The position numbers were made by a program, and so were the translations under genes. Below the pieces are notes generated by a model. That model did no database searches. It saw only the letters and a list, made by a program, of their open reading frames with translations, and was not told where the DNA came from. Below are positions 3,950-35,445 of a DNA stretch of 64,000 nt, in pieces (position 1 is the stretch's first letter; each line of letters starts with the position of its first letter). The stretch comes from Semisulcospira habei (lineage: Eukaryota; Mollusca; Gastropoda; Semisulcospiridae): the NCBI GenBank assembly GCA_036245525.1, contig BTPG01000004.1:235232318-235296317 (forward strand). Reading direction: 5' to 3'.

Positions 3950-4519
3950 AGTCAAACTTCAGTATTTCACACCCGAATGATAGGAGCTAATTTTTTGCAC
4001 TTCGCTGTCACACCTTGGTTTCCCTTTCAGAGGTCTGTGAAGATCTCAAAACCTTTCAAGGCACACTAAATATTTTCACTTTACGATTGCTGTGAGATTT
4101 TTTTAATTCCAAGGATTTCTTGTGTATATCAGTATATCTTTTTTAATTGCATGTGTAATGTCGCCCTTCCGACACCAAATTATGTAATGTCGCCCTTCTG
4201 ACATCAAAATTATGTAGCGTCGCCTCCCGTGTGCAATGTTTGTGTGACCGGTGAATGTGTATGTAAATGTTTGCTCGTGTCAGGATGCCAAGTTCACACA
4301 CACAAGCACAGTCACTCGCACTCGATACTAACTATAATAAAACATGTGAAACGAAGATCGCATTTCGTATATATATTGCAGTACAGGCTAATAAGGCTAA
4401 AGCGACAACAAATGCCCCGGCATGAGGCCGTTTGAGAAAAATATATTCTCTGCTGGTCACAATGTCATCAGATGTTAATACAGTAGCGCAGCAAGGTACT
4501 ATTATCTAAGTTGTGTCTC
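3950..4519. other. No gene seen
   Basis: AT-rich unique sequence with a short duplicated motif (TGTAATGTCGCCCTTC) at 4152-4200. No gene recognised. Confidence 0.5.
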
Positions 4520-5110
4520 TAAAAAAAATGACAAAGTCCAAAGTGCCCTTATAAAAGAAAGTCTATAAAAATAACTAAGTCAGAGAGGCCTTTGTTAAAG
4601 GAAGACCTGTACAAAAATGACTAAGTCCAAAACGCCCTTTGTAAAGGGAAGCCTCAGAAAAACGACGGAGTCCGAGACGTCCTTCAAAAGAAGAACTAAC
4701 TAAGAAAAATGACAGAGTCCGAAGACTCCAAAAAAATGGCTAAGTCCGACGCACCCCTGGTAAAGGAAAACTAACTATCTAGAAAAATGGCAGAGTCCAA
4801 AAGGTCCTTTGATAAAGGGAAGCCTCAGAAAAACGACAAAGTCCGAGACGCCCGTTATCAAGGAAGACTACAGAAAAATGGCAGAGTCCGAAGACTCCAA
4901 AAAAATGACTAAGTCTAAAGCGCCCTTTGTAAAGGGAAACCTCGGAAAAATGGCAAAGTCCGAAGCGCCCGTTACAAAGCAGAGCCGCCAGAAAAATGGC
5001 AAAGGCTCCCAAGACTCCAAAAAAACGACAGAGTCTGGGATTCCCGTTCAAAGGAGGGCTCAGAAAAATGACAGAGTCCAAAATGCTGGCTTGTAAAGAA
5101 CTCTGGAGAA
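4520..5110. repeat. Degenerate minisatellite
   Basis: An imperfect unit containing AAAAATGRCAGAGTCCRAA and CCCTTTGTAAAGGGAA recurs about twelve times at variable spacing of roughly 45-65 bp. Lysine/serine-rich frames on the plus strand and phenylalanine/leucine-rich frames on the minus strand come from the repeat. The irregular spacing argues against selection on a protein. Confidence 0.75.
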
Positions 5111-7685: not shown

Positions 7686-7693
7686 CGCTGAGC
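7686..7693. repeat. P-element target-site duplication, left copy
   Basis: CGCTGAGC directly precedes the left terminal repeat and is repeated exactly at 16988-16995 after the right terminal repeat. An 8-bp duplication is the hallmark of the P superfamily. Confidence 0.95.
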
Positions 7694-7724
7694 CACGGAC
7701 CTTTACTTTACTGGATGGCTGTCT
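7694..7724 (+). repeat. P-element left terminal inverted repeat
   Basis: 31 bp opening CACGGACCTTTA and closing GGATGGCTGTCT. It matches the reverse complement of 16959-16987 except for two extra bases. A second, looser inverted match follows inside the element: 7754-7791 against 16879-16918, sharing GGTCAAACTT and ACTTCCG. Confidence 0.95.
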
Positions 7725-7753
7725 TGGGGTCAAGGTCGAAATAGTATGGGTCT

Positions 7754-7791
7754 AAGGTCAAACTTGCAGACAAGGGATCAGTTACTTCCGG
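7754..7791 (+). promoter_or_regulatory. Left subterminal inverted repeat, likely transposase promoter region
   Basis: GGTCAAACTTGCAGACAAGG and, shortly after, ACTTCCGG lie 60-100 bp upstream of the transposase start. The mirrored right-end block (16879-16918) lies just upstream of the second gene's start. The shared ACTTCCG resembles the core of ETS-family sites common in TATA-less animal promoters. Whether it is a transposase-binding site or a promoter is inference. Confidence 0.45.
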
Positions 7792-7851
7792 TGGCATCTT
7801 TGCAAGTTTGGCGAAAGTTTCCAGTTATTATTTTGTGGCGTAATTTCGTGC

Positions 7852-10800
7852 ATGAAAATGGCGATGCGATCTAACCGGAATTGCTGCGTTGTGGGCTGTC
7901 ATACAACAGCCGGAAAATGCAGGGGGTTGTCGTTTTTGTCCATCCCGAAGGCTGGGAAAAATTCAGACATTAACAAATGGCGAAGTGATTTGATACAAGC
8001 CATCAACCGTTGCGATACAAGTTTCAATGCAGATAAGGCATTGATCTGCTCTCGTCACTTTGATGAGAACTGTTTGAAACGAGGTAAGTTTGATGAAATG
8101 CTTGCACATGTTTTCGTGTTATTATTCATGTAATATTAGCTTTTAATACGGAGCTTTAATCTCTTTATGCGGTGTGCCGGAGTGAGTGGTCTGACCGGTC
8201 TGTTACTTTCCAGTGTTGTTTGTTACCGTAATGTCGTTAGTGTACGGGACCAGCAATGCGCAAATTTCAATAATTAAATTATATCTATTTTATATATTAG
8301 ATCGTATACTTTAACAGATTTTGTATTCATCTGTTTTAAAATTTTATTGTGCACCTTTAACTCTGTAGGCCTAACTAAAATTTCTTGTAGTTTTAGACAA
8401 TAACGATACTGTGTGGTAACTTACAAGTTTCTGTCTCATCATGATAAATGCAGATATTTATGTTCAGTGTACAAATTTTGCAGGGCCAACAGGCAGGTGC
8501 ACAGGACTTGTTCCCGGTAGTATGCCGCTTCACTGGATGCCAAGAAAATCCATCGAAACAAGCAAAACTATGAGGCCAGAGCCAGTAAGTAGTAGACATT
8601 AATTTTATTGTGGGCCGCAAGTTTGTATTTCTCAATTTTCTGCTAACTTTATTTTGATCATGCGTTTTTCATAACTTTCATCAACATTTTAGTAAAAGCA
8701 TCCAAAACAAACTGCTTTAGTTCAAAAGTGTGAATGAAAATTAAAACTTCATACAAGAAGTACACAGCACTTGGTACGAAATTGTATCTAGTAAAAAACA
8801 AAATCAAACTGACAATACAGTTTGCCTGGGTGAATGTGTAGTTGAGCAGAAATGCATATATATAGATGTGTGTGTGTGTGTGTGTGTATATATAATATGT
8901 GTATGTGTATGTGTGATATACTTTTGTTTTTTACAGACTGCACGAGAGCCACCTCCTGTGCCAGTAAGAATTTGCTACCGAACCTTTGAAGATGTACAAA
9001 GAGATGCAAGAAAGACTTTGCCACCAGGGTGGGTGATGATGGAAAGCACACCGTCATCACTGCAGATTGGACTGCCATCAGAGAAAAACCAGTGGAGGAT
9101 AGTTGTCAGCATGGGAACCCCACACCTTCTTGCAAATGTGAAGGTATGTTACAATCATTGTTCTTGAATGCTATTTCTGTCTTTTTTTTTTTTTTTTACA
9201 GAATCAAGTAGTCATTGATTTTGTGCTTGAAAATGACGAGCGTGCGCCTCTTTGTTCCCTTCTTTTTCTGTTTGTGCTTGTAGATTATTTTTATATTTTT
9301 TAATTTTTTATTTTTATTTTTATGCAGCTTTTTTTTGTGACATGAACCGAAATAAATTTCTGTTACAGTATCAAAATTAAAATGTTGCAATGTTGTTTTT
9401 TATTATTTATTTTAAGCCAAAGTGTTATATCGTGATATAATTTCTACATATTGTCTTAAATTGCGTGAGTGTGTATAAGTGCTTTGAGCACTATTGTATT
9501 GAAATGGTGCTAAACAAATTAAATGTATAATTGAAATTATAGTGATCTTGGAAAATTTGATTGAAGATTAAAAGATCTGGAAATCATGTCTGGATTCCTT
9601 TTTTCCAAACTTGAAATCTGTCTTCTTTGGATTTGTTAAAATAAATAGTGCCATTATTAAGCATAAAATGCATGGAAGAACCAAAATAAGGGCTAACGGA
9701 ACGCGGTTCACTAAAAATTAAAAGGTACTTAGAGTGATTTGGATAAGCCGTGGTGGCTATGGTAAAAATTAATATGCTGTGTTGCTGCAAATTTAACTAA
9801 TTATGTTTATTTTTGTTCTGCAGGTTATTGGTATTCCTGCAGCCCACTTGGGAGCTGACCTTGAAGGCAAGAAACTTAGTGCTTTTCTGAGAGAGCTGCA
9901 GGCCATGGATGTGTGCACAGGCATCACATCAGCACCGCTGCAACAGTTTGCGGGGCCACCTGATAGCAAGACATCATATTACCAGCACATTCAGTACTTG
10001 GTGGTCAACGGGGCGATGCAACATACTTCATGTGTAAGATCCATCCACTGCCAGCTTCTGTATCAGCCAGACAACAAAGGAGAGTGGTGCAGACCATGCC
10101 ATCAAGCTGAAGCTCTATTGATGGAAAAAAAGAAGAGGCATGACAGCAGGATGATGCAGCCACTGAAACCAAATGACTCTCTCCGATCGCTTCACAACAA
10201 TAAGCTGAAAGAAGCACTAAAACATGCGAGAAGACAGAACAATACTCTACAAAAGGAACTTGAGAAATTTAAGTCTAAACTTGCTAATGACTCTGTTGTA
10301 TTGTCAGAGGATTTGCATCGTGACCTGCAACAGGGGGTGATGGGGAACTTAAACAATCCCCTTCAAAAGTTGTTTTGGGAGGAGCAACAAAAGGCCTTCC
10401 TTACCAAAGAACATGGAATGAGATGGCATCCCATGATGATCCGACTTGCCATCCTCATCCACTCCAAGAGTGAGACGGCTTATGAAACTCTCAGAAAGAC
10501 TGGCATCTTGAAGCTACCAGGTAAGAGCACCTTGCGAGAGTACACATCAGCTGTACATCCACAGCAAGGATTTCAGCCAGAAGTCTGGGAAGAATTAAAG
10601 CGTATTGCAGAGCGCCTGCCAGCAAATCAACGGTTTGTCGTTCTTTTACACGACGAGATGTCAATTAAATCCGATCTTGTCTTCGACAATCGCATGGGGG
10701 AATTGGTGGGCTTCATAAACAGCAAGGACGAATGGGATTTTGAATGCAGACCAAAGAAACTTGCTTCTCATGCCCTTGTCTTTTATGTTGTGGGGGTAAA

Positions 10801-11884
10801 CTCTACATTAAAGATGAGTTTGGGATTATTCCCTACCAGAACAGCAACATCTGACCAGTTGTATCCCTTGTTTTGGAATGCAGTTGGCTGTCTTGAAGAT
10901 GCTGGCCTCCAAGTCATCGTCAGCACCAGTGACAAGGCACCAGCCAATCAGCGTCTGTATCAAATGCACGGCAGGCAGGAGGAAATATGTTTTAAAACAC
11001 TCAATTTCTTTGCCCCAGATAGGTGGATTTATTTCATCAGTGACCCTCCCCACCTCATCAAGACAGTTCGCAACAATCTGGTCAGCAGCGCAGAGGGATC
11101 CACTACAAGACTGCTTTGGAAGGATGGGGAGTACATGCTGTGGCGGCACATTGCTGACTTGTACCACGCCGATATGCAGAGGGGCCTGGCACGCACTCGC
11201 CTCACGCTGCAGCATGTACACCTGAGTCCACACTCAGTCATGAATGTCCGTCTGGCTGCACAGGCACTGAGTGAGCGAGTTGGGCGCATCATGCAACAAT
11301 TTGGGGGGCCTGACAGACAGGAGATGGCAAAGTTCATCCTCCACATGGATCGATTCTTTGACTGTTTGAACTCGAGACACCTTTTGGAAGCAGAGAGAAA
11401 GAGAAAACCTGACCTGAGTGCTTATACCCAGGTAGATGATCCTCGATTTAATTATTTACAAACAGAATTCCTGCAGTTCCTCGAGGAGTGGCGATCTTCT
11501 GTGGAGAACAGGCCCGGGCCCTTCACCCGTGCTGAGAGGGCCAAGATGTTTTTGTCATTTCAGACGTACAGGGGCCTAGTAATGACAGTTCATGGGTTTG
11601 TTGAGGCGACCAAGTTCATGCTGGCCAATGGGGTTGAATTTGTTCTGTCAAACAAGTTTTGCCAGGACCCCATAGAGGAACATTTTGGTCGCCACAGAGC
11701 CATAGGTAGAACAGCTGAAAATCCCAACTTGCTTCAGTTCGCCTACCAGGAGAATTCGATAAGGCTTCAGCGCCAGCTGGCACTGACCATCACGCCACAG
11801 GGCAACGTCAAAGGAAACAACCACCAGCGACCTCCCGTGACTATCTCGAGCAGCCCTCTGAAGAAGAAACCCAGAAATAACTGA
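7852..11884 (+). CDS. THAP-domain P-element transposase (THAP9-like), 4 exons, 866 aa
   Basis: Exons 7852-8083, 8484-8584, 8937-9143 and 9824-11884 join with canonical GT-AG sites (donors GTAAGT, GTAAGT, GTATGT; acceptors TTGCAG, TTACAG, CTGCAG) and matching phases. They sum to 2,601 nt, 866 residues plus stop. Exon 1 encodes a C2CH THAP zinc finger: CVVGC near the start, a WRSDL motif, and ICSRHF about 65 residues in. Exon 2 adds a proline-containing THAP tail. Exon 4 holds the RNase H-like catalytic core: D457 in LLHDEM, D550 in TSDKAPANQ, and E798/E799 in DPIEEHFGRHR. The family motif SDPPHLIKTVRNN follows D550. The basic tail (SSPLKKKPRNN) resembles a nuclear localisation signal. Length is close to human THAP9 and longer than Drosophila P transposase. 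The second ATG (7858) has better context than the first. No stop or frameshift breaks it. Expected activity: binding the element's ends and cutting and pasting it in the nucleus. Confidence 0.95.
8083..9823 (+). other. Transposase introns 1-3
   Basis: Three AT-rich introns of 400, 352 and 680 bp. Intron 2 contains a TG/TA microsatellite near 8866-8912; intron 3 is T-rich. No nested gene was recognised. Confidence 0.85.
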
Positions 11885-13220
11885 GTGTCATGTGGGACTG
11901 ACCCCTACATTTTTTGCTGTTTCATTAAACTATGCTTTCGAGACGTGCCTCATTGTGTTCGATATCAGTCTCAAAGTATAGTTCTCTTATTTACATACAG
12001 AGAGAAAGGCGTCGGTGTCGATAGTGTAGAATTTATTTTATTGACATGCTGACTACTAAGAGAGAATTTATGAAATGCTCATATTTTCATTATCTTGTGC
12101 CATTGTTAAAAATGCAGGATATTTTTGTACCCAGTGGGCAGTGTGTTCTTCATGGTTCTATTAATTATGAATATATCCGTGAAAGGTTTGTTCCTTGTGG
12201 ACTATTGCTGCTACTCTGTTGTCATGTTTTTATTTTTGTATTCCCAGATTATATTTGGAAAAACGTTGAAATAGTCGAGGAATAACTCTTTTTCTTCATT
12301 ATCTTCAGTTAAAAGGATCATGGTTCGTTCCCTCGCTAATAAAGATTGTCATTTATTATTTTTATTATTAGCAATATTATTTGTGGTTTTTGTTTTGTTT
12401 TTATATTTATTCATTAACATTTTTTTAATGGTGAGTAGAGAGACGTGTTGGTTTGTGTGTACAACTGAAACGGGCCACAGCTAAATAGGATTGTAAATGT
12501 GTGTGGTTATCTAGAAATATTTTTAAATGGTTTGAGTGTTTAATTATTCTTTGACTAATTGAATAAAAATGTGACACTTCGTGATGACATTTTAAAAAAT
12601 TTATGTAACGTACATCTATGTTGATTGAAAAACAGCAAGCATATTGTACGAGATGTTTGTGAAAACAAAAGTAGACTTTAAGCAGATTTTGGTTGTATCG
12701 GTGTCAGGATCATTAACATTATGCAACGTTGCAACTTCATTTTGACGTGTGAAGATATTGTCACTACCAAAAAGTATTACACCTGCACTGATCGAATTTC
12801 AAACTCGCAAGCAGTTCTTTTGTGTATGCAATTTTTTTTTTTTAAATCTTCATAGACAAATGTTCAACTATGGATTAAAATGCGACACTTCATGATAACA
12901 TTTACTTTAAAAAAAAAAATTAATGGTGAATGTGAATATGCATTTTATTGTATTACCTAGTTGAAGATTTTTTTTAAAAATTAGCGAACATGTACATTTA
13001 TGGTGATCAAGGAAGATATATTCTATGAGACGTTTGTGAAAAACAATGCCCTGTCTGTAAGCAGATGTTGGTCTTTTGTGTATGTGTGTGTGTCATTTCT
13101 CATCATGCAATATAAACATCAAAATACATTGGTTGACATTACCACTGTTTATTTTCCAACAAAATTGTTCAAGAAAAAAAATCACATAATTTGTGGATAT
13201 TGTCTGTCATGTATACATGA
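11885..13220. other. Transposase 3' region; diverged internal duplication
   Basis: Polyadenylation-like signals lie downstream of the transposase stop: ATTAAA near 11925 and AATAAA near 12339. A diverged duplication is visible: a block from about 12555 (AAAATGTGACACTTCGTGAT, then GATGTTTGTGAAAA) recurs from about 12876 (AAAATGCGACACTTCATGAT, then GACGTTTGTGAAAA). Short open frames here show no family resemblance. Confidence 0.55.
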
Positions 13221-13221
13221 A

Positions 13222-13800
13222 AACTAGACCCAAGACTAGACCGAGTTTGTAATACGGAAAGAACAATACTGTCGCAGTCATATGTACATCAAGACTAGGG
13301 CTGAGTTTGTAATACCAAAGAACATAAGGCCCTACCAAAAAAAATGTCTGTTTATTGTATCCCAACCAACCCAATTTTTTGGGCCCAATCCTAAACTTTT
13401 GGCATCGTCTGGTTAAAAAATTGGAAAAAAGCCAACAAAAATCTCACCAAAGGTGAAAAACGTTTTTTTCTTCCCTATGTTACTGTAAACAGACATATTA
13501 TTTTGGGGGGCCTAATACTGTCGCAGTCATATAATACATCAAGACTAGGCCTGATTTTGAAATACCAAAGAACATAAAACTGTCGCAGTCATATATACAT
13601 CAAGACTAGGACTGAGTTTGAAATACCAAAGAACATAAAACTGTCGCAGTCATATATACATCAAGACTAGGACTGAGTTTGAAATGCCAAAGAACATAAA
13701 ACTGTCGCAGTCATATATACATCAAGACTACACACAAGACTCCAATGTCTGAGTTTGTAATACCAAAGAACACGAGTCAGGTATACATGAAGTGTAGATC
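13222..13800. repeat. About 61-bp minisatellite inside the P element, split by a MITE
   Basis: Units carrying AAGACTAGGACTGAGTTTG, AATACCAAAGAACATAA and ACTGTCGCAGTCATAT recur about eight times with few differences. A 185-bp MITE (13328-13512) is inserted within one unit. Confidence 0.85.
13328..13512. mobile_element. Harbinger-like MITE nested in the P element, 185 bp
   Basis: Terminal inverted repeats of about 27 bp: the left end starts GGCCCTACC and the right end, reverse-complemented, starts GGCCCCCC; both contain ATGTCTGTTTA. The element is flanked by TAA on both sides (13325-13327 and 13513-13515). A 3-bp TAA duplication and GGC termini suit the PIF/Harbinger superfamily. It carries no coding sequence and interrupts one unit of the 61-bp minisatellite. 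Confidence 0.75.
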
Positions 13801-13884
13801 CAAGTCTAGGCCTGAGTGGATTACCAAGGAACTCAAATTTCAAGTTTGATTTATGGACTCCTAAGGAGCCAAATCAAAACCAAG

Positions 13885-14605
13885 ATCAGTGGATGTTACT
13901 ATTATATTAATGCATCACAGTATAAAACAAACCAAGATCAGTTGATGTTACTATTATATTAATGCATCAAAGTTTAAAACAAACCAAGATCAGTTGATGT
14001 TACTATTATATTAATGCATCAAAGTTTAAAACAAACCAAGATCAGTTGATGTTACTATTAATGCATCAAAGTATAAAACAAACCAAGATCAGTTGATGTT
14101 ACTATTAATGCATCAAAGTATAAAACAAACCAAGATCAGTTGATGTTACTATTATATTAATGCATCAAAGTATAAAACAAACCAAGATCAGTTGATGTTA
14201 CTATTCTATTAATGCATCAAAGTATAAAACAAACCAAGATCATTTGATGTTACTATTATATTAATGCATCAAAGTATAAAACAAACCAAGATCAGTTGAT
14301 GTTACTATTATACTAATGCATCAAAGTATAAAACAAACCAAGATCAGTTGATGTTTCTATTATATGAATGCATCAAGGTATAAAACAAACCAAGATCAGT
14401 TGATGTTTCTATTATATGAATGCATCAAGGTATAAAACAAACCAAGATCAGTTGATGTTACTATTATATGAATGCATCAAGGTATAAAACAAACCAAGAT
14501 CAGTTGATGTTACTATTATATTAATGCATCAAAGTATAAAACAAACCAAGATCAGTTGATGTTACTATTATATTAATGCATCAAAGTATAAAACAAACCA
14601 AGAGG
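13885..14605. repeat. 53-bp minisatellite inside the P element, about 13 units
   Basis: Thirteen or so units built on AACCAAGATCAGTTGATGTT, an AT-rich spacer and AATGCATCAAAGTATAAAA. Two units share a 6-bp deletion (ACTATTAATGC) and three share a TGAATGCATCAAGG variant, showing local duplication of sub-blocks. It lies between the 3' ends of the two convergent genes. Confidence 0.95.
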
Positions 14606-14829
14606 GATAATTTAACATTAAATATTGGCACAGTCGCGAGAAAGTGTGTAATACTAGTATTACTACTGTATTATAAAAGAACATAATATTGGCACAGTCA
14701 GGTATGCCATCAAGGCTAAATTCAAGGCTAGAGCTCATTATTTCACCAGATGGAATTCCAATACATGATAAAACAGTAGTAGTAGTAAATTACCAGTGAA
14801 TACATACATGGTTTCACAAAAGATTCAGC

Positions 14830-16864
14830 CTATTTCTTCGAAGGTTCTAGTTTAAGACCTTTCCTCAGGCCTTTGGCGGACACAGCGGTTGTCGACTTCA
14901 CTTTCTCCATGTACTTCTTGCATTCATGATGTATTCGAATTTTGAAGAAAAGCTGCATAATAGATAAACATACAGCCTCCTTGCTTTCATCACCAACGTC
15001 GCAATCAGAGGTCATCTCTGTGTATGCTGCCAAAATGTTTTGATCTTGGCAGCACATAGTGCTGAAATTCTGACTGGAGCTGCTCTCATTCTTGCTGAAC
15101 AGGAGGCACACTTTCTTCTCCAAAAGGACAAAGAATTCTTTTGGTGTTTGTCTAAGGAAAATCAATCCTCCTCGGTTAAGGGCTGATGTCAGTACGCTTG
15201 CCTGGTCTTCCTCTTGGCTGAACTTCCTCAGGCACTGCAGCCTCTCCTCTTTCTGCGCACTGTCTTTCAAACGCAGATACCTCTGTTTCAATTTCTGCAC
15301 AATGCTTCACAATATCTTTCATATCATCTGAGAGCGGGACATCTAAATCGTGGAGTGCAGCATCTTCTGACTGCACAGATGAGATTGGGTAGTTGTCATC
15401 TAGCAACTGTTGAAACAGTTGGAGGCACAGCCACATCGACGCTTGAACAGATCCGGTCAAAGATGTGACAGATAACATGTGCTCTTGGTAAGCCGCATTG
15501 AATTTTGTCCATGCCTTCTCCCTTGCTGTGGTTGGAAACTTGCTCCTTGCAACCAGACATGTGTTCAAAAATGCGGTCTTTTCCAAAACGCTTGATCCTA
15601 AAATAAATTACAAGTTAAAGTAAGATGTGTCAGTGTAGCACATATTTAATGCACTTAAACATTTATACCTATTATACAAATATTTATACATATTTATTGC
15701 ACTTAAACATTTGACTCAAGCACACACATCACATTACAATAACAAAAAAAAAAAACATTCCCACCACCACACAGATGTTCATCTCCAAATCAAATAGTAA
15801 TCCTGAATTTATCAACACATCACTTAACTCGAACACATAAAACAAACAAACCAGCCATAATAACCAGGAAACATCACTATCATGTGCATTACTAATGGTA
15901 ATGTATCACATTTTATTTCCAAGCATACGCTTCTTTTCAAATATCAAGATAGGGAAGGAAATGGGTAGCTGGCACATTAAAACTCTTCTATGAATTAACA
16001 ATTACATTGGCTCGTCCATTTGGGTGTAAAAATGCATACATTCCACTGTACTTACTAGATGCAGTTTTGAAAAATTCCTTTGCATTGATCGATATACAGT
16101 TGTTAGCCAGGAACCAACATGCGCGGTCTATGTCTTGCATGTTGAGCTGAAACATAAGTGGTCACAATTTAGTATTACAAATGCACCTACACACAGCGGT
16201 TGGATTGGTCCTGATTTAATACAATTTGGTGATCCATTATTTTAACCTGTTAAAAACATGTGTATGGAGGGGGGGGGGGGGGGGGGAGGGTCTCTTTTTT
16301 AGAGAAAGCACATTTTTTCCTTCTTTTGTTTAATTATTATTGTTTTTACACACACCTGGAATCTACAAATAGTTAAATTATTACAGTCACTCTTTTTTTT
16401 CTCTCAATTATCACCTGGCTCTTTCTCACTCGTATGGCAAGATATCGATACCAAAGCTCACCTCTGTCAGTGGACTCTTCTGATTTGCCTCATCTGAAAC
16501 CGGTTCACCACACATGACTTCACTCTGGACAAAAGTAACACATGAACAATAAGTCTCTACTTTTATTTCATTGGGCTATCTGCATATTTCACATCTCTAA
16601 TTACATTTCTCAGTCATTTTGAAAGTCCGTCAATCGATAAGCATTGCATTCCCGACCGCTCTGCAACAAACTTACCACTCGTCAGTTTGGGTCGTTAAAA
16701 TATAAATAAATAAATAAAAAACTTCCTCAAGAAAAACAGGAAATGTCTTAGTTACAATTAAAGTTAATGATTCTACAGATCTTTCGTTCGTAAAATAAGT
16801 AGTTGTATTATAAAACGCTGGGATTTACCTCAAGGATCTCGTCAACATTGAACTGCGTAGCCAT
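14830..16864 (-). CDS. Second P-element gene, unknown function, 4 exons, frameshifted in exon 4
   Basis: Read on the minus strand, exons 16864-16829, 16524-16462, 16146-16056 and 15597-14830 have good splice sites (donors GTAAAT, GTGAGC, GTAAGT; acceptors GTCCAG, TTTCAG, TTTTAG) and agreeing phases. The start ATG lies 124 bp inside the right terminal repeat. The frame of exon 4 runs into a stop at 15176. A second frame, open over about 155 codons down to a TAG at 14830, takes over near 15295-15312. Spliced length is 958 nt, one base off a multiple of three, which suggests a single-base frameshift (real or assembly error). The predicted product is about 318 aa: an acidic start, a middle containing RACWFLANNC, and a basic C-terminus (KKYMEK, RKGLKLEPSKK). 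I recognise no domain. It converges on the transposase and stays wholly inside the transposon ends. Confidence 0.75.
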
Positions 16865-16878
16865 GTTTAAACTGAAAA

Positions 16879-16918
16879 CGGAAGTTCGGAGTCCCTTGGC
16901 CTTGAAGTTTGACCTTTT
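16879..16918 (-). promoter_or_regulatory. Right subterminal inverted repeat, likely promoter of the second gene
   Basis: Reverse complement of the left block at 7754-7791 with several mismatches, sharing GGTCAAACTT and ACTTCCG. It ends about 15 bp upstream of the second gene's ATG. The two ends thus place similar sequence ahead of both genes. Confidence 0.45.
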
Positions 16919-16958
16919 TCCTCACTCGCGGTAAGGAGGTATGAGAGAGAGCGGGAGC

Positions 16959-16987
16959 AGACAGCCATCCAGTAATAAAGGTCCGTG
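16959..16987 (-). repeat. P-element right terminal inverted repeat
   Basis: 29 bp; reverse-complemented it opens CACGGACCTTTA and closes GGATGGCTGTCT like the left end, lacking two bases in the middle. The right copy of the 8-bp duplication follows at 16988-16995. Confidence 0.95.
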
Positions 16988-16995
16988 CGCTGAGC

Positions 16996-20284: not shown

Positions 20285-23031
20285 AACAAGACATGTAATC
20301 TCTTTTGGCTTGACTTCGCGAACGAAGATTTTATAGGAGTTGCACACGACGTCTGCAGGCTTGTTCATGGCTGCGGAGGCCAATCCGAGACAGGCAGGTT
20401 CGACCGCAGTGGCTGCAGGGGAAGGTATGGCCAGGGTTCTGAGCTGCGGCATCTCTGTTTTTTCTCCTGAGCCGCTTGTCCTTAAGGCTAGCTCTGTGAG
20501 AGTCCTCAAAGGAGACAGCTGCCTTGTAAATGGTGGAGCGCCAGGTGTCACGGTCCGCAGCAAGTGAAGACCACTGGTGGTGGTCGATTTGGCAGGCACT
20601 AAGTGACTTCTTGAGACAGTCTTTGTATCTCTTCTTTGGTGCCCCTCTGTCACGGTGTCCAGTAGCAAGCTCGCCGAACAGGGTGATCTTTGGTAGGCGA
20701 TGATCCTCCATCCTGGAGACATGCCCCGCCCAGCGGAGCTGTGTCTGCAGCAGCAAAGCCTCGATGCTCACAGTTTCAGCCTGTTCAAGGACCTCGACGT
20801 TGGTGACATAGTCACTCCAGTGAATGCCCAGGATGGTACGCAGGCAGCGCTGGTGAAAGCGTTCGTGGAGTCGTAGTTGGCTGCGGTAGAGGGCCCAGGA
20901 CTCGGAACCATACAGCAGGGTGGTGAGGACCACAGCTCTGTACACGCTGATCTTGGTGCCTGTTTTCAGCTGTTGATTGTGCCACACCCGCTTGAAAAGT
21001 CGCCCAAAAGCGCTGTTCGCTTTTGCCAGCCTGCTGTCAAGCTCCTTGTCCAGCTTGGCGTCCGACGTGATAATGCAGCCAAGGTAAGTAAACTGGTGCA
21101 CTGACTTTAGTTCAGACTCGCCAATGGTGATGTGAGGAGGGCGATACACTGTCTTGGGTGCCGGCTGATGGAGGACCTCTGTCTTTTTCAGACTGACCTC
21201 GAGTCCAAAGAGCTGGGCAGCATCTGCGAAGCAAGACGTGATGCGCTGCAGGGCTCTTTCTGTGTGTGCAACGAGGGCAGCATCATCAGCAAAAAGCAGC
21301 TCACGAATCAGTTGGTCTAGGGTTTTCATGTGGGCCTGCAGTCGTCTGAGGTTGAACAGGCTGCCATCGAGACGATACCTGATGTACACTGCATCGTCAT
21401 CATCGAGGTCCACTGTGGCCTGCTTCAACATCATGCTAAAAAAGATGGTGAAGAGGGTCAGTGCCAGCACGCAGCCCTGCTTTACGCCGTTGAGAATAGG
21501 GAATGGTTCTGAGAGGTCATTGTTGAGTCTGACCTGGCCTTGCTGGTCCTCGTGTAGCTGGACAATCATGTTGAGGAACTTTGGGGGACAGCCAAGTCGC
21601 TCCAGGATCTGCCACATGCCTTGCCTGCTCACAGTGTCGAATGCTTTTGTTAGGTCGACAAATGTTACGTACAGCCCTTTGTTCTGCTCGCAGCACTTCT
21701 CCTGTAGCTGTCTCAGCACAAAGACCATATCGGTGGTGCTCCTGTTTGCTCTGAAGCCACACTGGCCCTCTGGGAGTTGGTCTTCAGTGATGGCAGGTAC
21801 CAGCCGATTCAGGAGCAGTCTTGCAAGGATTTTCCCAGCAATGGACAGCAGGGTAATTCCCCGATAGTTGGAACAGTCAGACTTCTCGCCTTTGTTCTTG
21901 TACAGGGTGATAACGACTGCATCACGGAGATCTTTTGGTAGTGTTCCTACCTCCCAGCAGCAGAGAAAGAGGTCATGGAGCTTGTTGTGCAGTGCTGTGC
22001 CTCCATGTTTCCAGATCTCTGGTGGTATTCCATCAATGCCTGCTGCTTTGCCACTCTTGATCTGGTGGATGGCTGTGAGGGTCTCTTCAGCGGTGGGCGG
22101 TTCGTCCAATTCAACCTTTACTGGGAGGTGTGGGATTTGTAGGACGACTGCTTCTTGAACTGTGCGCTCAGCGCTGAAGAGGCTCTGAAAGTATTCCGAC
22201 CAGCGGTTCAAGATGGAGGTATTATCTGTGAGGAGTGCCTGGCCATTCGCGCTTCGCAGGGGACTTTGTACCAGGTGCCTGGGGCCATACACTGCTTTCA
22301 GTGCTTCGTAGAAGCCCCTGTAGTCACCATTGTCAGCGCAAAGCTGGGTCCTCTGTGCAAGTCGGGTCCACCACTCATTCTGGAGATCTCTGAGCTTGCG
22401 CTGGAGACTGCTGCAGACGAGGCGGAAGGCAGACTTCTTCACAGGGCATGAAGGCTGGGCTAGGTGGGCCTGATGGGCGGCTCTTTTTTTTTGCTAGGTG
22501 TTCCTGGATCTCTACATCGTTTTCGTCAAACCAGTCTTTGTTCTTCTTTCTGGCAAAACCCAAGACTTCTGCAGAGGATTTTGCAATAGCAGTTTTCAGT
22601 TGTTCTCAAAGTGTTTCAGGGGAGGAGTCTACTGGGTCCGCTGTGTCTTTGAGCCTGCGCTGTAAATCTGTCTGAAAGGCAGCTTTCACATCGTCACGCT
22701 GAAGGCTGGCAACGTCAAGCTTTTTCTTGGGGGGCCCCCATTTCTTGGGTTTTGGCTTGAAGTGGAGCCTGAGTTTGCAGCGGACAAGGCGGTGGTCAGT
22801 GTGGCACTCTGCGCTGGGCATCACTCTGGTGAGGAGGACGTCACTGCGGTCCCTCTGACGCACTAGGACATAGTCGATAAGGTGCCAGTGTTTGGAGCGA
22901 GGATGCATCCAGGTGGTCTTTCGACTGTCCTTTTGCTGAAAAGTAGTGTTGGTGATGACCAGTTGCTGCTCCGCACAGAACTCCAACAGTAGGCGGCCAC
23001 TGTCATTGCAGTTCCCCACGCCATGCTTGCT
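20285..23031 (-). mobile_element. LINE, 5'-truncated 3' part (endonuclease tail, reverse transcriptase, zinc finger)
   Basis: The copy starts inside the endonuclease domain at about 23031 and runs to the 3' UTR near 20285, where TCTTCGTTCGCGAAG forms a small hairpin. The endonuclease tail (about 23031-22606) keeps the DHRLV motif and then meets a stop. A further frame break lies near 22440-22490. The reverse transcriptase frame below 22442 is intact. It belongs to the same family as the fragment at 31826-32887, which holds the missing 5' part. Confidence 0.9.
20331..22442 (-). CDS. LINE reverse transcriptase with C-terminal zinc finger (703 codons open)
   Basis: Seen in order: GKAAGIDGIPPEIW (RT motif 1), GFRANRSTTD, motif A FVDLTKAFDTVSRQG, motif B GVKQGCVLA, motif C LLFADDAAL with both aspartates, then the post-RT block WAGHVSRMEDHRLPK, and a C-terminal CSHCGRTC...HEQAC zinc finger. 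This layout fits APE-type non-LTR elements; the post-RT block is reminiscent of RTE-like and related clades, but I cannot fix the clade by eye. The domain would copy the LINE RNA at a nicked target. Its N-terminal partner region is frameshifted, so this copy is very probably dead despite the long open frame. Confidence 0.9.
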   Translation of the reverse strand: MKKSAFRLVCSSLQRKLRDLQNEWWTRLAQRTQLCADNGDYRGFYEALKAVYGPRHLVQSPLRSANGQALLTDNTSILNRWSEYFQSLFSAERTVQEAVVLQIPHLPVKVELDEPPTAEETLTAIHQIKSGKAAGIDGIPPEIWKHGGTALHNKLHDLFLCCWEVGTLPKDLRDAVVITLYKNKGEKSDCSNYRGITLLSIAGKILARLLLNRLVPAITEDQLPEGQCGFRANRSTTDMVFVLRQLQEKCCEQNKGLYVTFVDLTKAFDTVSRQGMWQILERLGCPPKFLNMIVQLHEDQQGQVRLNNDLSEPFPILNGVKQGCVLALTLFTIFFSMMLKQATVDLDDDDAVYIRYRLDGSLFNLRRLQAHMKTLDQLIRELLFADDAALVAHTERALQRITSCFADAAQLFGLEVSLKKTEVLHQPAPKTVYRPPHITIGESELKSVHQFTYLGCIITSDAKLDKELDSRLAKANSAFGRLFKRVWHNQQLKTGTKISVYRAVVLTTLLYGSESWALYRSQLRLHERFHQRCLRTILGIHWSDYVTNVEVLEQAETVSIEALLLQTQLRWAGHVSRMEDHRLPKITLFGELATGHRDRGAPKKRYKDCLKKSLSACQIDHHQWSSLAADRDTWRSTIYKAAVSFEDSHRASLKDKRLRRKNRDAAAQNPGHTFPCSHCGRTCLSRIGLRSHEQACRRRVQLL

Positions 23032-23540
23032 GGACATGTAATAGCACACACATATATACTGACTTTTAAATCAGGCCTTTCTCTCTGTGAGGTGGCTATG
23101 AGACATGTATGCATCATTCATGTTACATTCGGAACAGCAGCGACGACAATCAATAGTCGTTACTTGACATCATTCACGTCAATTTTATGCATAGAATTCG
23201 GAGCCCTCATGAGTTCGGCTCTGTATTGGCCTCCTAGACTATGCCGTGGCTTGCAGCAGATGTTCACAGCCAAGAACCACAACTTACTCGCAAAGAGACT
23301 TAAAGAGAACAGTATACCTGTGCTGTAAAGGCGATACCTGCCCTGTTCTATCTCCAGTCAACATCACCAATGAAAGAGTTGTGACTGGTTTCTAAGGAAT
23401 TATGTTCACAGCAACCGGGCCTAAACAAGTGTGCCTTGCATTGCGTCAGCTTCTCCAGACATTGCATCAGACTAATTTTATTGGCTCAAAGAATTTGACC
23501 AATCGGTGCTGAAAACTTTCCTGAATATAACCCAGCGCAC
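23032..23540. other. Junction between LINE and Polinton remnant; no gene seen
   Basis: No recognisable Polinton terminal repeat and no LINE sequence. A CCAAT-like motif lies near 23490-23505, just ahead of the first Polinton-side ORF. Confidence 0.4.
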
Positions 23541-26043: not shown

Positions 26044-26991
26044 TAAACTATCAAAAATATATTACTCTCCAATTGGTTACTGGAAATGAAAGACTGCATT
26101 AGAAAAATTACATGCCGCTGTGGGTAATGATGTATCACTCGAACAAATAAGACAGTGGCTGCAAAGACAAGCAATATGGCAAATATATTTACTTGCACCA
26201 AGAAAAATATCTAGACCTCATTTTGAAAACACTACACCAAATGACACCCATCAAATGGATTTATTGTTTCTGCCACATGACATAATAAGAAAGAAACGAT
26301 ACAAATACGCACTGGCTGTTGTAGACATTGCTTCAAGATATAAGGACGCTGATCCCATAACTGACAAGAATGCTGTAACAGTAGCCACTGCATTAACAAA
26401 AATATATAGTCGAGGCCCTTTAAATTTCCCCAGACTTGTGCAGGTCGAAGATGGATCTGAATTTAAAGGAGCAGTTAATCAATTATTTGCAAAGGACGGC
26501 GTGCTTGTGTGGCGAGGCATTCCAGGCATGCACAGATCACAGGCAATTGTTGAGAACTTTAACAAACAGTTATCAGAGAGACTTTTCAGTTACCAGTATT
26601 CTAAGGAACTCATGCATGACACACGTAACACTGAGTGGGTAATAAGATTACCATCTGTGCTAAAAGCCATGATTAATGAAGGACATGTAAAACCCACAGA
26701 TGCTATTAAATTGAAAACAGTGCCGTCAGGGTCAGAAATAAAAACAAAAGTGCCAGACACAAGTTTATTTACAAAACAAGTAAGATATTTATATCAACCT
26801 GGAGAGGCTGAAAATGACGTCAGACGCAGAGCAACAGACCCCATCTGGTCTACATCTGTACACAATATAAAAAAATAGTCTCCAGCAGTCCACCGATTTA
26901 TTACCTGTATGAGCCAGCCCCACAGAGGGCATTTGTCAGAGAAGAATTACAGATTATTCCCCCAGACACTGTTACTCATTTCAGTAACTAA
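26030..26991 (+). pseudogene. Polinton integrase (retroviral-type DDE), broken
   Basis: RNase H-fold integrase with the catalytic triad in place: first aspartate in HQMDLLF, second in VEDGSEFKG, glutamate in HRSQAIVENFNK. It is interrupted by an in-frame TGA at 26087-26089, about 20 codons after the ATG at 26030. It shifts frame in an A run near 26868-26876; the tail then stays open in another frame to a TAA at 26989-26991. It would have inserted the element into the genome. Its 3' end overlaps that of the converging polymerase by 45 bp. Confidence 0.9.
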
Positions 26992-29900
26992 CTCGTCAAT
27001 CAGTTCATCACAAATGTCTTCAGATAACTTAAGTCTGTAGTGTCCAGGTGCATAAGCCTTTTCCTTACTGTGAAACACTCGTTTCGTGTCCCCAACTGCA
27101 AGTGACTTTTTATGTGTTTGGATCATTTCAATATTGTGTTTGTTTGATCTCAGTGTCTTGTTTGGATAATCAGGCATTAATGTACCATCTAATACTTGCT
27201 TGTAATGATCATGACGTATGTCTTTATTTTTTATTGCTGTTTTTTTTTTTTTTTTTTTTTATTCCTTTGGCTTTTGACTGACTTCCCTTTTGGTGCAGTA
27301 TAGAATACATTTTTGACCTCAGTCCAACGTACTCAACTATCGGCACACCATTCAGTTCATCCTTAAACTTACCAGGCACTTTCTTGTTCTGTGTGCTGTA
27401 CAGTGGGTGATCTTTAGGATAGTCAGATGTGTCATACATGTGTAACTCTGTTTTCATGTCTTCATAAAAGTCTTTAGTAGGCACATAAATGATCATAGAG
27501 TCAGTGTATAGCAGACGACACTCAGGATACTTTGGTTTGAAGTAATCATAATAAAATTCAAGCATCAACAGTTTTGATACTCAAGAATTGCCATACCAAT
27601 GAATACTGGCTTGTCCAGTTTAACAATTTTTTTTTTTTTTTTTTTTTTGAGTGGCACTGCATACAATGATGAATGAAACTCTTTATACCCTGTATACTGT
27701 GGCTTACCTGTAAGTTTAATTGCACCCAATTCTGTTGTGACAAGTCTCACATCTTTGCGGTGATGTGGAGTTTCCATCGTCTTACCAAAACAGGCATTGT
27801 TCATAAGCTTAAAGAAGTCTTTGTCAAATGCAGTGTTGCCGTCCCTGGCACGCAATGTTGTGTTCTTCATTATGTAATCTTTCATAAAAGCACTCTGATC
27901 AAATTGAATACCTCTGTGAACTTTCTTTAGTACTAACCCATGTCTGATGTAAAACTGCAGCAAGCGATAGTGACATACGTAATTAAATTTGTCATTCAGA
28001 TTTGGCACAAGTTTAGTGTCTTCTTTTTTTCCTGTCATACTCATTTTCTCAACAGCCAATGGATAATCATTGTGGTAATCATGTAGATGGTGTGGGTACT
28101 CTAGGTCTACTTCAAAGATCCAACCCTTCGCATCATTCCGGTCATGATTAATAATATTGTTTGTTATCTCTGTTATGTCATACTGTGACAAATCATACAG
28201 ACAAAAGTTTTTCAAGGGCAATAATTCACACATTGCGAACCCGTAAAGGTTATTAGCATCTACGTACATAATGAATGACCTTGACCCCTCAGGGTCAAAG
28301 TCCGGGCCGTCAATATATTTATTATTTGCTCTGGCGTAATTGTTTGCTGCAATACTAATCCCACCCCTCAATCCGCGTTCCACCATTTCACCCATCATAT
28401 GATCAGACAACAGGTCAATAAATATTTTACTGGATTTCAAAAATGCATCCCATGTCATGCCAGGACTAGTTATGTAGCAAGCCGGGTCAAGACTGTAGTG
28501 TAATAGACCCTTTTCGTGGTAACTTTCAAATACATCTGCTAGCAAACAAACGCCAGCCTATAAGTACTGGTCATGGTAGTCACCAATCGTCTGAAACCCT
28601 AATTTATCCCACGCATCGAGTGCATGTTGGTAATCAGAGTCAGAAATACTTTTTCCATTTAGTGTGGAATAAAATTTCTCTTTTGGTGGCAGTCTCCTTT
28701 CCTCAAACACAACCCAGTCACTGATGTACTCATAAGGATACACTCCTTTCTTAATCAAGTCTGGCTCAAAATATTTACTTGTTATTGGAAACGATGTCAG
28801 TCCGTCTGCCAGACTGGCAAGACCTAAAGACAAATGTTGCATTGAGTCATAAAATGTTAATTTGTTGTCCAGCCTAAAAGTCAAGTATTTTTTAGTTGTC
28901 TGTGCTATACAACTAATTTTTTTTGTAAGACTCATCCACAGCCTGCATGATAATATGTGAATCATACCCTTTGAGATTGTGGAAAAAGATAGGTAACTTA
29001 CATGTCTTAGGATCTGTTTTTAATAATAAGTTACACTTGTTATGTGCAGCACCTCTGTAACGTCCAGTTATGTGATCATGATCATGAACTTTGTCACCCC
29101 TCCCCCCCCCCCCCCCAGAGGTTGTTCACAAATCCAACACATCACAGCTGTATCAAAATTTAGTTTATTTTCTTCTGTCATCATCACAGGCATCTGATTG
29201 TTTTCTAGATAATGTACTACCTGACTATACAGTTGTCTCATTTCTGTTAAAAACAGACATGCTGCATTTTTACCCCTGTAGATAACAGGGTCGGTATGCT
29301 GTCCGTCTGACTTAACAAGAATATATCCAAAAGAACACACCACTTGATCACTCAATTTTACAGTCTTTGGCAATGATTCTGGAACAGGACCTTCATACGG
29401 AACAACCAATGATTCAAACTCAGCATACACTACAAATGGTAGCTTTTGCTGATTCCCATAGTTCTTGAAATATACTTGACTACCAGGATCTGGATACTTA
29501 AGTACTGTTTGTATATCATCAGCTGACCTACAGTGCAAGACATGTTTATGTGCTGCTTCAATAGAGGAAAACCTTTGTAAACATCTCTTACACACGTCCT
29601 GTTTTCTACCATATTTTGACACATGATTATGAATTAGTCGTGTCATACTCCTAATAATTGTGTAGTGGTCTCCTATTAATAACATGTCAACATGTTTATT
29701 TTCTGGCTGCCCATAGGTTGGAGCAAGTGGTGATACTCTAATTGGTTGTAACTTGTCAACAGACTCATTATCCCACACAAACACATTCACAGATATACCA
29801 GGATTTGATTGTTCAAACAAGTCTATGTCCTCTATTTTAACAGGGAAATCAATACCACTGAAATTAAGTTCATTTACAAATTTGGTGTAGTTAGATACAC

Positions 29901-30374
29901 TTTCAGGTTTTGATTTTATATAATGCAGTTTAGCAAGCACACACCACATGAAACAATAGTGGTCATTGTTTTGTATATTAACAACAGCCTTTTTGTTTGC
30001 AACCTCTGTTGGCAGTGGTATCCATGATTTGCCTAATATAGGATGATACCTTGACTGTTTTAATTGTAGTTCATGCACATGACCTTCGTGCCAACCAGAC
30101 CCCTTCATTTTTGCTTTGTCAATTGCTTCTAGAAAGTCTGGCAATAGTTTTTGTCTAAACACTTTTTCCAATTCTCTTCTTGTGTTGTGTGTTGTCTTGT
30201 CGATATATATGATACAATCACTTCACCATCTACTCTGGTAAATTCTATTTTAGCAACAATCTGAATCTTTACACTGCCTGAAAGAATATTATCTTGTATG
30301 ACAGAAAAAGAGTTTTCTATTGATTCATAAACATTGTAATTATTAGATATAGGCAAGTCTGTTGTGTGAAACAT
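26947..30374 (-). pseudogene. Polinton protein-primed DNA polymerase B, heavily decayed
   Basis: About 3.4 kb of family B polymerase sequence. Visible in order: N-terminal region, a C-x2-C...H zinc-like motif (CKRCL...HKHVLHC), exonuclease I region reading YAEFES (family aspartate replaced by glutamate), exonuclease II HNLKGYDSH, polymerase motif A VDANNLYG, motif B KLMNNACFG, and motif C reading YTDSM, where the family has two aspartates; a two-codon loss is likely. Frame breaks occur near 30165, at the C run 29102-29117, near 28920, at an in-frame TAG (28558-28560), near 27570 and near 27237. T runs of 22 and 21 bases (27627-27648, 27240-27260) insert lysine codons. It would have replicated the element using a protein primer. 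Confidence 0.92.
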
Positions 30375-30438
30375 GTTTCTTAAACCTTGAGCATTGTCCT
30401 TTATTTTTATTTGTCCGACAAAATAATAATAGAAAAAA

Positions 30439-31157
30439 TTACACTTTATGTAATACCACTTTATTAACTGTAACACTGTTAATATAAACATTTAGTTTAC
30501 GTAGTTGTTGAAATATTTGTTCACAAAGTATCTCAAACCATTTGTTATTATTAACTCTTAAGGTGGGTGTCCTTAAATCAACTGTTAAACACTCCACATC
30601 TGGATGCTCATCAAAATAATTGATTGATTGTACACTGCTTAACGTCCCGACAGCAACAAGGCTTTCTCAGGACATGCCTGCACTGCTTGTGAAAAAAAAA
30701 ATAAACAGAACATTGAATGTATGTCGCCAGCCGGTCAAATACGTTAAATAAACCTAACACATGGGGCTAAATAAAGATAAGACCATTTAGCAACAAACAT
30801 CCAATATCAAGAGCTACAGGCAGTGCAGACAGTAGGGAGAGTTTTAAAAAGGCAAATACAGGTGAATGGACAAAGGGTAGACAGAAACACATGCCCCAGA
30901 ATGGAGAGGAAAACCCACCCTGTGGGGCTGACCAGGGTGACCCTGGGAACTAAAAAATACCTAACCCCACCCAAGTCCCCCAGGGCAGACCCGGGTGGGG
31001 TCTCATCAAAATAATCCAAAGACACATTATATGACAAATATATTGCTGATGACTTTAAGAGGTTTATGTCAGGCTGTTTGGGAGGTGTTCTTATCTGAGT
31101 AAAGTGCACAACATCTTTGAAGCAGTGTGTGATGTCAATAGTTTGTCCGTCCGTCAT
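30439..31157 (-). pseudogene. Polinton ORF of unknown function, split by a retroposon
   Basis: Begins at an ATG (31157-31155), reads to 31002, is interrupted by the 381-bp retroposon, and continues in the same frame below 30620 to a TAA at 30439-30441. The uninterrupted product would be about 107 aa. It lies just upstream of the polymerase on the same strand. No domain recognised. Confidence 0.6.
30607..31015 (-). mobile_element. Short retroposon, copy 1 (element 30621-31001)
   Basis: A 381-bp element flanked by a perfect 14-bp duplication CTCATCAAAATAAT (30607-30620 and 31002-31015). On the minus strand it begins near CCACCCGGGTCTGCCC and ends GGGACGTTAAGCA, then a few AATC repeats. No Pol III A/B boxes are obvious in the head. 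The long duplication and simple-repeat tail indicate target-primed reverse transcription by a LINE partner. It interrupts the Polinton ORF. Confidence 0.92.
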
Positions 31158-31159
31158 TT

Positions 31160-31379
31160 TTATTGGTCAAACAAAAGTATAAATTAATTCCCTAACCCAT
31201 ACCCTGTGGGCTGATCTGTCTTTAAGATAAGCTTTAGTGCTTATTTGATTTCAGGTTTTTTTTTTTTTTTTACATCATCCTGTTCTTGTTTATTTGGTAT
31301 TACATCATTCTCTCTGAGACAGTCTTCAAAGCTGTCACGGTCCTTACAGTAAAACAAACAGATAAACTTTTAACTGTTC
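31160..31379. other. Polinton spacer with T run; no gene seen
   Basis: A T run of about 16 lies at 31257-31273. No open frame of note. Confidence 0.5.
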
Positions 31380-31676
31380 TCAAAATTCTTTCACTACAGC
31401 ATTATATTTGTGAGTGAGAATCCATACACTGATGTTTGCGTGTCTGCCACTAAAGGCCAGTTCTGCCAGTGTGTTTCTCTTTTTGACAATGTCTTTCTCT
31501 GCTGAGCAATCATCAACAATAAACAAAGTTGGCTGTCCTTCAAATTGCTTGTAAAAATATTGTAGGTAGTCATTCAGTTTTTTCTCAGGGTCAACTAAGT
31601 AAATGTTGCTGTCAGTCCAAATAAATAAACGGTTGTGATATGCTTTGTTGTGTTTTATTGTAGGACAAAATATCAC
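31380..31676 (-). pseudogene. Polinton packaging ATPase (FtsK/HerA-type), N-terminus missing
   Basis: C-terminal part of the ATPase that packs genomes in Polintons and related viruses. The Walker B-like LFIVDDCS is clear, followed by [20 protein letters not shown], typical of the family's sensor region. The Walker A part should lie upstream, but the coding sequence meets a TA microsatellite at 31693, so the nucleotide-binding loop is absent. Confidence 0.85.
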
Positions 31677-31690
31677 AATGTTTTCAAAAT

Positions 31691-31819
<129 letters not shown>

Positions 31820-31827
31820 TGTAGACG

Positions 31828-31897
31828 GGGAAGTGGCGCAGTGGTTAAGGCGTCTGCCTCCAATGCCAAAGGTGCGAGGTTCGATACCAGGTTCCGG
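31828..31897 (+). promoter_or_regulatory. tRNA-like Pol III promoter (A and B boxes)
   Basis: A-box-like TGGCGCAGTGG and B-box-like GGTTCGATACC at tRNA spacing. The acceptor stem pairs poorly, so this is a tRNA-derived retroposon head and not a working tRNA. The head could drive transcription of the downstream LINE leader or mark a SINE fused to a LINE. Confidence 0.8.
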
Positions 31898-33835: not shown

Positions 33836-35445
33836 ATAATAATAATAATAATGGCTACTTATAAAGCGCTTATACTAAAATAAGCTCTTAGTGCTTTACA
33901 AATAAAGAGTGGGAGTGGAGGGGGTCATAATGCCAAAGGAACAAAGGATTCTGCAATCACACGCACACACACAGACAAACACACAGGTACATAACGGCCA
34001 CTGACGAAGAACTGCGCGCGAGCTACATTGGGGTATCGAACAGATGGGTCTTTAGGGCAGATTTAAAGGCAGTGAATGAGGGAGAATGTCTAATATCTAT
34101 GGGTAGAGAGTCAGACAACACTGAGGTCCAACGTGCGCAAAACAACGGTCACCTCTGTTTGCAGAGAGGGACTCTGAGAAGGCGCGCCCTGTCACTACTT
34201 GAACGGAGGGAGCGGGAGGGAGTGTACAGTTGAAGAAGATCAGCGAGATAGGCAGGGGTAGTAATAGAGTAGTTAATAGTTTTGTAGCACAGACAGGCAA
34301 TTTTGTACGAGACTCGTTGTTTGACTGGTAGCCAATGAAATTTGTCTCAGGATAGGAGTGATGGGCTGATGCTGTCAGGCGTGGACGATAAGATGTGCAG
34401 CACAATTCTGAACTCACTGCAATTTCTGAATGAGAGACCGAGGGAGGCCAGCTAAGTAATCAATTGCAGTAATCAATGCGGGACAAGACTAAAATGATGA
34501 CCAGTTTGGTGGCAGATTCAGTGGTGAGGTAATGACGGATAGAACTGATACGTCTTAATTCCAGAAAAGCAATTTTGCAGACATGATTTACATGGTCCTT
34601 CATTTGAAGATCTTTATCAAGAAAAACGCCAAGATTGCGAACTGAATCAGAAAATGGAATAGGTGCGTCACAAATGTGCATTGAGTCAGGAGAATTGGGC
34701 AGCAGTCGAGAGGCACCGACAAGAAGAGCTTCTGTCTTGCCCTCGTTTAACTGAAGTTTATTTTCACACATCCAGGACTTAACATCTGAGATACAGTTCT
34801 GAACATCTGAAATAGCCTGACTGGAGCTGTTTGGAGGTGCAGATTTCGGAAGTTGTGTATCATCCGCACACATGTGATGATCGGTTGAATGTGATGCGAT
34901 AACCTGAGACAGAGGCTGAGTGTACGGCGTAAATAGAATGGGGCCCAGGAAGGAGCCCTGGGGGACCCCAAACTCTAGCGCAGCAGCTTCAGAAAGAGCG
35001 TTCTTGACAGAGACGTTAATCTGACAGGAAGACAGATAAGAGTAGAACTTACCAGAAATACCAAAGTAGTTTTCTAGACGCTGGAGCAAGATGGAGTGGT
35101 CAATGGTGTCAAACGCAGCTGATAGGTCTAACAGGGCACGAACTCAGCTCAGGTTTTCATCATAGGCACTTACTAGGCCATTAACGACACAGAGGAGAGC
35201 AGTTTCAGTACTGTGCCCAGCACGTTAAGCAGACTGAAGTGGATGGATGAGATTGTTTGACTGTAGATATTTAGTGAGCTATGTCAGAACGACTCTCTCA
35301 AGAACTTTGGACAGAAAGGGTAGGTTTGAAACAAGGCGTTAGTTCTTTAGCTGGTTGGGGTCAAGATTCGACTTTTTCAGGAGAGGTTTGACAACGGCTG
35401 ATTTGAATTCTGACAGAAAGACGCCGCAATCGAGGGACTGATTTT
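33836..35445 (-). pseudogene. L2/CR1-type LINE reverse transcriptase fossil
   Basis: Minus strand. Motif A LLDLSAAFDTIDHSILL lies at about 35150-35085, GVPQGSFLGPILF at about 34970, and motif C reads MCADDTQL, with cysteine in place of the usual aromatic residue. Several in-frame stops break the part above 35100. The 3' end is an ATT microsatellite (33836-33850) preceded by GCGCTTTATAAGTAGCCATT, as in many L2/CR1-type elements. Inactive. Confidence 0.88.

Follow-up and report, generated by a model that had tools for sequence, protein, structure and literature searches.

A P-superfamily transposon of Semisulcospira habei with a second, convergent gene that probably encodes the C-terminal part of a divided transposase

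A stretch of 64,000 nucleotides from the gastropod Semisulcospira habei (contig BTPG01000004.1 of assembly GCA_036245525.1, positions 235,232,318 to 235,296,317 of the forward strand; hereafter the window) contains a P-superfamily transposon with two genes that face each other, a transposase gene (gene 1) and a four-exon gene of the opposite strand (gene 2). We propose, with a probability of roughly 0.78, that the P transposase is here split over the two convergent genes, with the part resembling its C-terminal domain (CTD) being carried on the gene 2 protein. By comparison of sequences the split falls at about the boundary between RNase H and the CTD, and the two genes are found together, and open, in many copies.

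The sequence of gene 1 points to the catalytic part of a P transposase, namely THAP, RNase H with a GTP-binding insertion and acidic catalytic residues, as in the rest of the superfamily; Pfam matches to THAP, TNP-like RNaseH_N and GBD lie above the cut-off and that to RNaseH_C below it, and acidic residues at the presumed catalytic places are invariant in an alignment of 14 gene 1 relatives. A profile of these 14 relatives matched chain A of the fly transposase complex (PDB 6p5a) with an E value of 2e-38, reaching residue 564 of 569, and gave no match to chain B, the solved CTD sequence, at E 1 or better. The CTD that the described members of the superfamily have on the transposase chain was therefore not found in gene 1. 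A gene 2 profile likewise gave no match below E 0.1 in 81 gene 1 proteins (80 relatives and that of the window, many of them incomplete), the best E values being 0.12 and 0.16. The top match in one of these comparisons, in a single-chain tick protein, P0083, is located at its C-terminal DRGGL stretch; it is not significant, and its placement would fit a transposase still carrying its CTD, as one would expect.

The QD..E motif is readable in 61 of the 81 gene 1 proteins, and 57 of these, including that of the window, end 59-79 residues past the motif; the tails of the other four measure 36, 45, 52 and 433 residues, and the 20 proteins with no readable motif, several of which look cut short, were left out of the count. 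In several animal groups the gene 1-type proteins have similar ends, in most cases a basic tail, and could be complete as they stand, which favours a reading of gene 2 as a CTD-derived regulator that sits at the CTD site or on the transposon ends and holds back or directs a gene 1 enzyme active alone. Fly P elements do make truncated repressors, although the 66-kDa repressor, as described in the available text of PMC7776569, keeps THAP and lacks the C-terminal third, which is the reverse of gene 2. The pairing of the genes in several families and their low dN/dS, both given below, are explained no less well if gene 2 is an essential part, and we consider a regulator unlikely.

The profile of gene 2 matched chain B significantly, with an E value of 0.00058 over the whole sequence and matching stretches at residues 2-23, 41-73 and 49-123 of 135. 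It weighs against a CTD assignment that this match rests partly on overlapping stretches (41-73 and 49-123) and that none of the stretches is significant alone. The curated cut-off of the Pfam family PF12596 was not reached by 15 gene 2 members, the best score being 19.7 against 22.6 bits; three of the 15 gave matches with an E value of 0.5 or lower, in the second half of the 107-position model. At the level of sequence, the homology between gene 2 and the P transposase CTD is nevertheless well supported. The N-terminal half of the gene 2 protein is helical, has no recognised relative and is absent from the fly CTD chain. In Harbinger/PIF elements the partner of the transposase is an unrelated, Myb-like DNA-binding protein, and the initial annotation had offered such a partner as one possibility for gene 2, regarded as an accessory protein with no recognisable domain. 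An accessory in kind it may be called, but its profile relates it to the P transposase CTD, whose fold it may share, and Pfam matches of the 15 members at E 0.5 or better included no Myb/SANT family. On the basis of the profile comparison gene 2 seems to be a separated piece of the transposase and not an unrelated partner.

The exon model of gene 2 held up as first described, with four exons and three introns, all GT/AG and in phases 0/0/1. A protein search, which had been suggested as a check, returned an annotated protein of Littorina saxatilis (P0001, 320 aa) with 50% identity over 97% of the query (E 1e-91). Its alignment spans all four exons, with 9/12, 4/21, 13/30 and 138/247 identical residues over aligned residues in exons 1 to 4, exon 2 being weakly conserved; with P0001 aligned from end to end, chance does not account for the exon model. 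The product of roughly 318 aa initially predicted is not encoded by the window copy, where a frameshift in exon 4 had been missed and the conceptual product has 203 codons, against about 323 codons (63 + 260) in copies with an open exon 4. Against L039, an intact copy from the same family, exon 4 of the window lacks 14 bp at about 15309 and shows two other differences, and relatives retain a Y-I-G-G-like stretch where the loss occurred. Splicing was considered as the cause of the frame change, and 800 GT/GC-AG combinations keep the frame mechanically; it was rejected, and a deletion is the simple answer, since both the relatives and the intact copy hold the missing stretch. The window copy would then depend on other copies for the gene 2 protein.

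Among 30 distinct same-family loci (L002-L031, window included), the 14-bp loss was seen once, exon 4 being open for 260 codons in 23 loci, broken early (66 codons) in six, three of which lie in one tandem array, and 140 codons long in the window.

The initial annotation had advised asking whether other copies contain both genes. A search of the genome with the last exon of the transposase, 65 of 891 first-look candidates being scored, gave 67 rows, two transposase copies occupying two rows each. Gene 2 lies within 15 kb of at least 61 of the 67 rows, in convergent orientation in 61 of 61 and in other orientations in none, where about 0.15 would be expected at random. The linked rows comprise 45 of 48 at 94% identity or more and 16 of 19 at 55-69%. 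As copies of a single element do not count as independent cases, and near-identical copies stand about 12.97 kb apart in two arrays, it is the number of families that carries the weight. Four of the six unlinked rows were read: one has a convergent gene 2 beyond the matches listed, another has kept exons 2-3 of gene 2 and lost exon 4, and two showed no element sequence within the stretch taken. From the side of gene 2, at 20 places chosen by hand over four families and overlapping with the 61 linked rows, a transposase was found at the predicted place and in the predicted orientation in 17 (in two as the N-terminal part only); the other three had no transposase in the stretch, and for two of these it lies just outside. 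Judged on last exons, 35 near-identical transposase rows have this exon complete and without a stop, and in 20 of them a 263-codon gene 2 exon 4 frame lies nearby.

Both genes also appear to be constrained. Between two families, the rates of nonsynonymous (dN) and synonymous (dS) substitution were 0.30 and 1.39 for gene 2 (LWL85; NG86 gave no dS) and 0.24 and 1.71 for the transposase, which points to purifying selection on both genes, with dS near saturation. That gene 2 is a genuine second gene of the element is strongly supported. The initial annotation had named a captured host gene as the alternative, in which gene 2 would be a passenger; the introns, and the lack of any named relative with a known function among the search results, speak for this, but gene 2 faces the transposase in at least five families and is similar to the P transposase CTD, and each of the two genes begins a short way inside its end of the element, preceded by subterminal sequence that matches between the ends, which makes capture very improbable. 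Equally hard to credit is a remnant of a second P element, nested or recombined, with its transposase reduced to the C-terminal part: such a remnant would resemble the end of a P transposase, as gene 2 does, but gene 2 has its own start codon, four exons and the N-terminal half that the fly chain lacks, and its frames are open and constrained across diverged families. A remnant may describe the origin of the split and not its present state.

A search of the genome with the last 158 residues of gene 2 gave at least 151 matches, of which 150 were used, and at least five gene 2 families could be told apart among the matches listed. The first is near-identical, and the others are 58-59%, 40% (frame of 278 in most), 39% (frame of 299 in most) and 38-40% identical, this fifth family having frames mostly of 276-293 codons and about 60 rows among the matches listed. 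In a family other than that of the window, a 7,155-bp element (L033) has both genes within perfect 31-bp repeats and an exon 4 that shares 84% identity with the Littorina protein. A 28-bp inverted repeat, which may not mark the outermost ends, encloses both genes in the family of L034. For L035, no right-hand terminal repeat was found over 16 kb; between gene 2 and the transposase of this copy, at 4289-4558, lies another short segment that matches the final part of gene 2. At L032, of the same family as the window element, gene 2 exon 4 is open and only the last 63 codons of the transposase are present in the 10 kb read; it is probably an internally deleted derivative that kept gene 2. In family E, the one with about 60 rows, 10-kb stretches of three copies (L036-L038) hold an N-terminal transposase piece in two and none in the third, and the genome search placed transposase frames farther out near several other copies and near that of L038, all convergent. 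These copies also contain an extra long frame, of 360 codons in L036 (6157-7236, minus strand) and 269 in L038, and by eye a piece like an endonuclease of the long interspersed nuclear element (LINE) type. The arrays with the spacing of about 12.97 kb lie at C1:280363736-280390140 and on C192, with three gene 2 matches each; part of the copy number is, as assembled, tandem duplication, real or of the assembly.

Inspection of the ends agrees with the class of the element. Gene 2 lies, as first described, wholly within the transposon, which spans 7694-16987 and includes both genes; the start codon of gene 2 is 123 bp inside the right end. An 8-bp duplication as in the P superfamily flanks the window element (CGCTGAGC) and L039 (ACCAGAGG), where the last exons of both genes are open; L033 is flanked by seven identical bases (GTGGCGA), not eight. 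Terminal repeats of about 31 bp with subterminal repeats, also typical of the superfamily, were found in the window (31/29 bp, and 12 bp) and in L033, which has a 23-bp subterminal pair, 91% identical, near both ends. In the left end the 12-bp repeat AAGGTCAAACTT covers bases 61-72, and in the right end bases 72-83. Beyond this repeat the two ends of the window element agree at 24 of 42 positions, a value reached by 15 of 1000 shuffled pairs; this similarity is only suggestive, and the pair of L033 is clearer. The distance between the two genes differs from copy to copy, and the interval in the window holds minisatellites. On its ends, its duplication and gene 1 we class the element as a P-superfamily transposon, and since no CTD was found in gene 1 but a CTD-like protein is predicted from gene 2, we read it as a variant organisation within the superfamily, not seen in the members described in the available text.

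Table 1. Features of the transposon in the window.
Feature	Position	Strand	Remarks
Target site duplication	7686-7693 and 16988-16995		8 bp, CGCTGAGC; flanks both ends
Left terminal inverted repeat	7694..7724	+	31 bp, 2-bp gap against right copy; alignment
Left subterminal inverted repeat	7754..7765	+	AAGGTCAAACTT; exact 12-bp match to right end
Gene 1, transposase	7852..11884	+	exons 7852-8083, 8484-8584, 8937-9143, 9824-11884; 866 aa, open frame
Minisatellites	13513..14603	.	units of 61 bp and 52 bp; in the interval between genes 1 and 2
Gene 2 exon 4	14830..15597	-	CTD similarity; 14-bp deletion at about 15309 in this copy
Gene 2 exon 3	16056..16146	-	AG/GT borders in 30/30 loci
Gene 2 exon 2	16462..16524	-	AG/GT borders in 28/30 distinct same-family loci
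Gene 2 exon 1	16829..16864	-	aligned to P0001
Right subterminal inverted repeat	16905..16916	-	AAGGTCAAACTT; alignment
Right terminal inverted repeat	16959..16987	-	29 bp; alignment

Elsewhere in the window, Polinton/Maverick-like pieces were seen by eye at 26090-31844 (an integrase-like frame on the plus strand, DNA polymerase B-like frames and an ATPase-like piece on the minus strand), as were LINE-type reverse-transcriptase-like frames on the minus strand at 20331-23070 and 34460-35143. Long minisatellites, open in several frames, occupy 53527-55080 and 56465-60109.

Outside this genome, no relative of gene 2 or gene 1 was confirmed in a viral collection, and a search of bacterial and archaeal genomes with gene 1 gave one relative (L001, contig JACERO010000093.1), filed under a Nitrosopumilus metagenome-assembled genome. 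It is a P-type transposase over three frames, by introns or damage, and is probably eukaryotic contamination because pieces like a retrotransposon integrase lie beside it; the rest of this short contig holds no gene 2.

A CTD supplied in trans is mechanically reasonable because in the fly complex, as PMC7776569 describes it, the CTD is tethered by a disordered linker, is placed between RNase H and the GTP-binding domain of another subunit and contacts both transposon and target DNA. In a divided transposase, gene 1 would supply THAP, RNase H and the GTP-binding domain and stop about where the flexible linker of the fly protein begins, and gene 2 would supply a protein of about 320 residues with a helical N-terminal half followed by the CTD. 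Both proteins would assemble on the element ends, the gene 2 protein docking on the gene 1 protein, perhaps through the N-terminal half of gene 2, which is the likeliest part for this; the docked CTD may then be positioned as in the fly enzyme, with RNase H of one subunit on one side and the GTP-binding domain of the second subunit on the other, and strand transfer would need both proteins. We give even odds to the wider proposal of a whole branch of the P superfamily with an obligate two-subunit transposase, its CTD subunit acting in trans from a convergent gene, reached independently of the RAG1/RAG2-type transposon but resembling it. Sequences in this genome and in Littorina suggest such a branch, and CTD-less gene 1 relatives named from Hydra, Priapulus, thrips and echinoderms hint at its breadth.

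P elements, a major tool of genetics, are the textbook case of a transposon with a single gene, and our literature search, outside of which fell most subscription journals and probably the Repbase reports, found no description of a second gene or a split transposase in them. A natural split, if true, would provide a separable CTD whose role in end recognition and target choice could be tested by adding or withholding it, could explain the short look of gene 1-type proteins in several animal groups, and would be a further example of a eukaryotic cut-and-paste transposon in which two convergent genes are kept together.

Among the closest known systems is the Drosophila P element (87-kDa transposase, PDB 6P5A/6PE2), which has 31-bp terminal repeats, 11-bp subterminal repeats and 8-bp duplications (PMC7776569); the present element shares terminal repeats of about 31 bp, subterminal repeats of similar length (11 against 12 bp), the 8-bp duplication, THAP, RNase H with a GTP-binding insertion and a helical, CTD-like part. 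The fly element is described as 2.9 kb long with one transposase gene and the CTD on the same chain (PMC7776569), whereas the elements here measure 7-9 kb and have two convergent genes, the CTD-like part belonging to a second protein that has an additional N-terminal half. Vertebrate THAP9 and zebrafish Pdre2 are also P-type, the zebrafish elements having 8-bp duplications and subterminal repeats (PMC7776569, PMC10983969); unlike here, zebrafish THAP9 is described as having its CTD on the same chain (PMC10983969), and no second gene is mentioned in the available text of the two papers. Harbinger/PIF elements also hold two genes in one element, two open reading frames being mentioned in one abstract. 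Gene 2, unlike the Harbinger/PIF partner, resembles part of the transposase. Heteromeric transposases from neighbouring genes are found in ProtoRAG, with its RAG1-like/RAG2-like pair, and in Tn7, with TnsA/TnsB; no relation in sequence is claimed, and the likeness is one of gene organisation, the ProtoRAG genes being also convergent.
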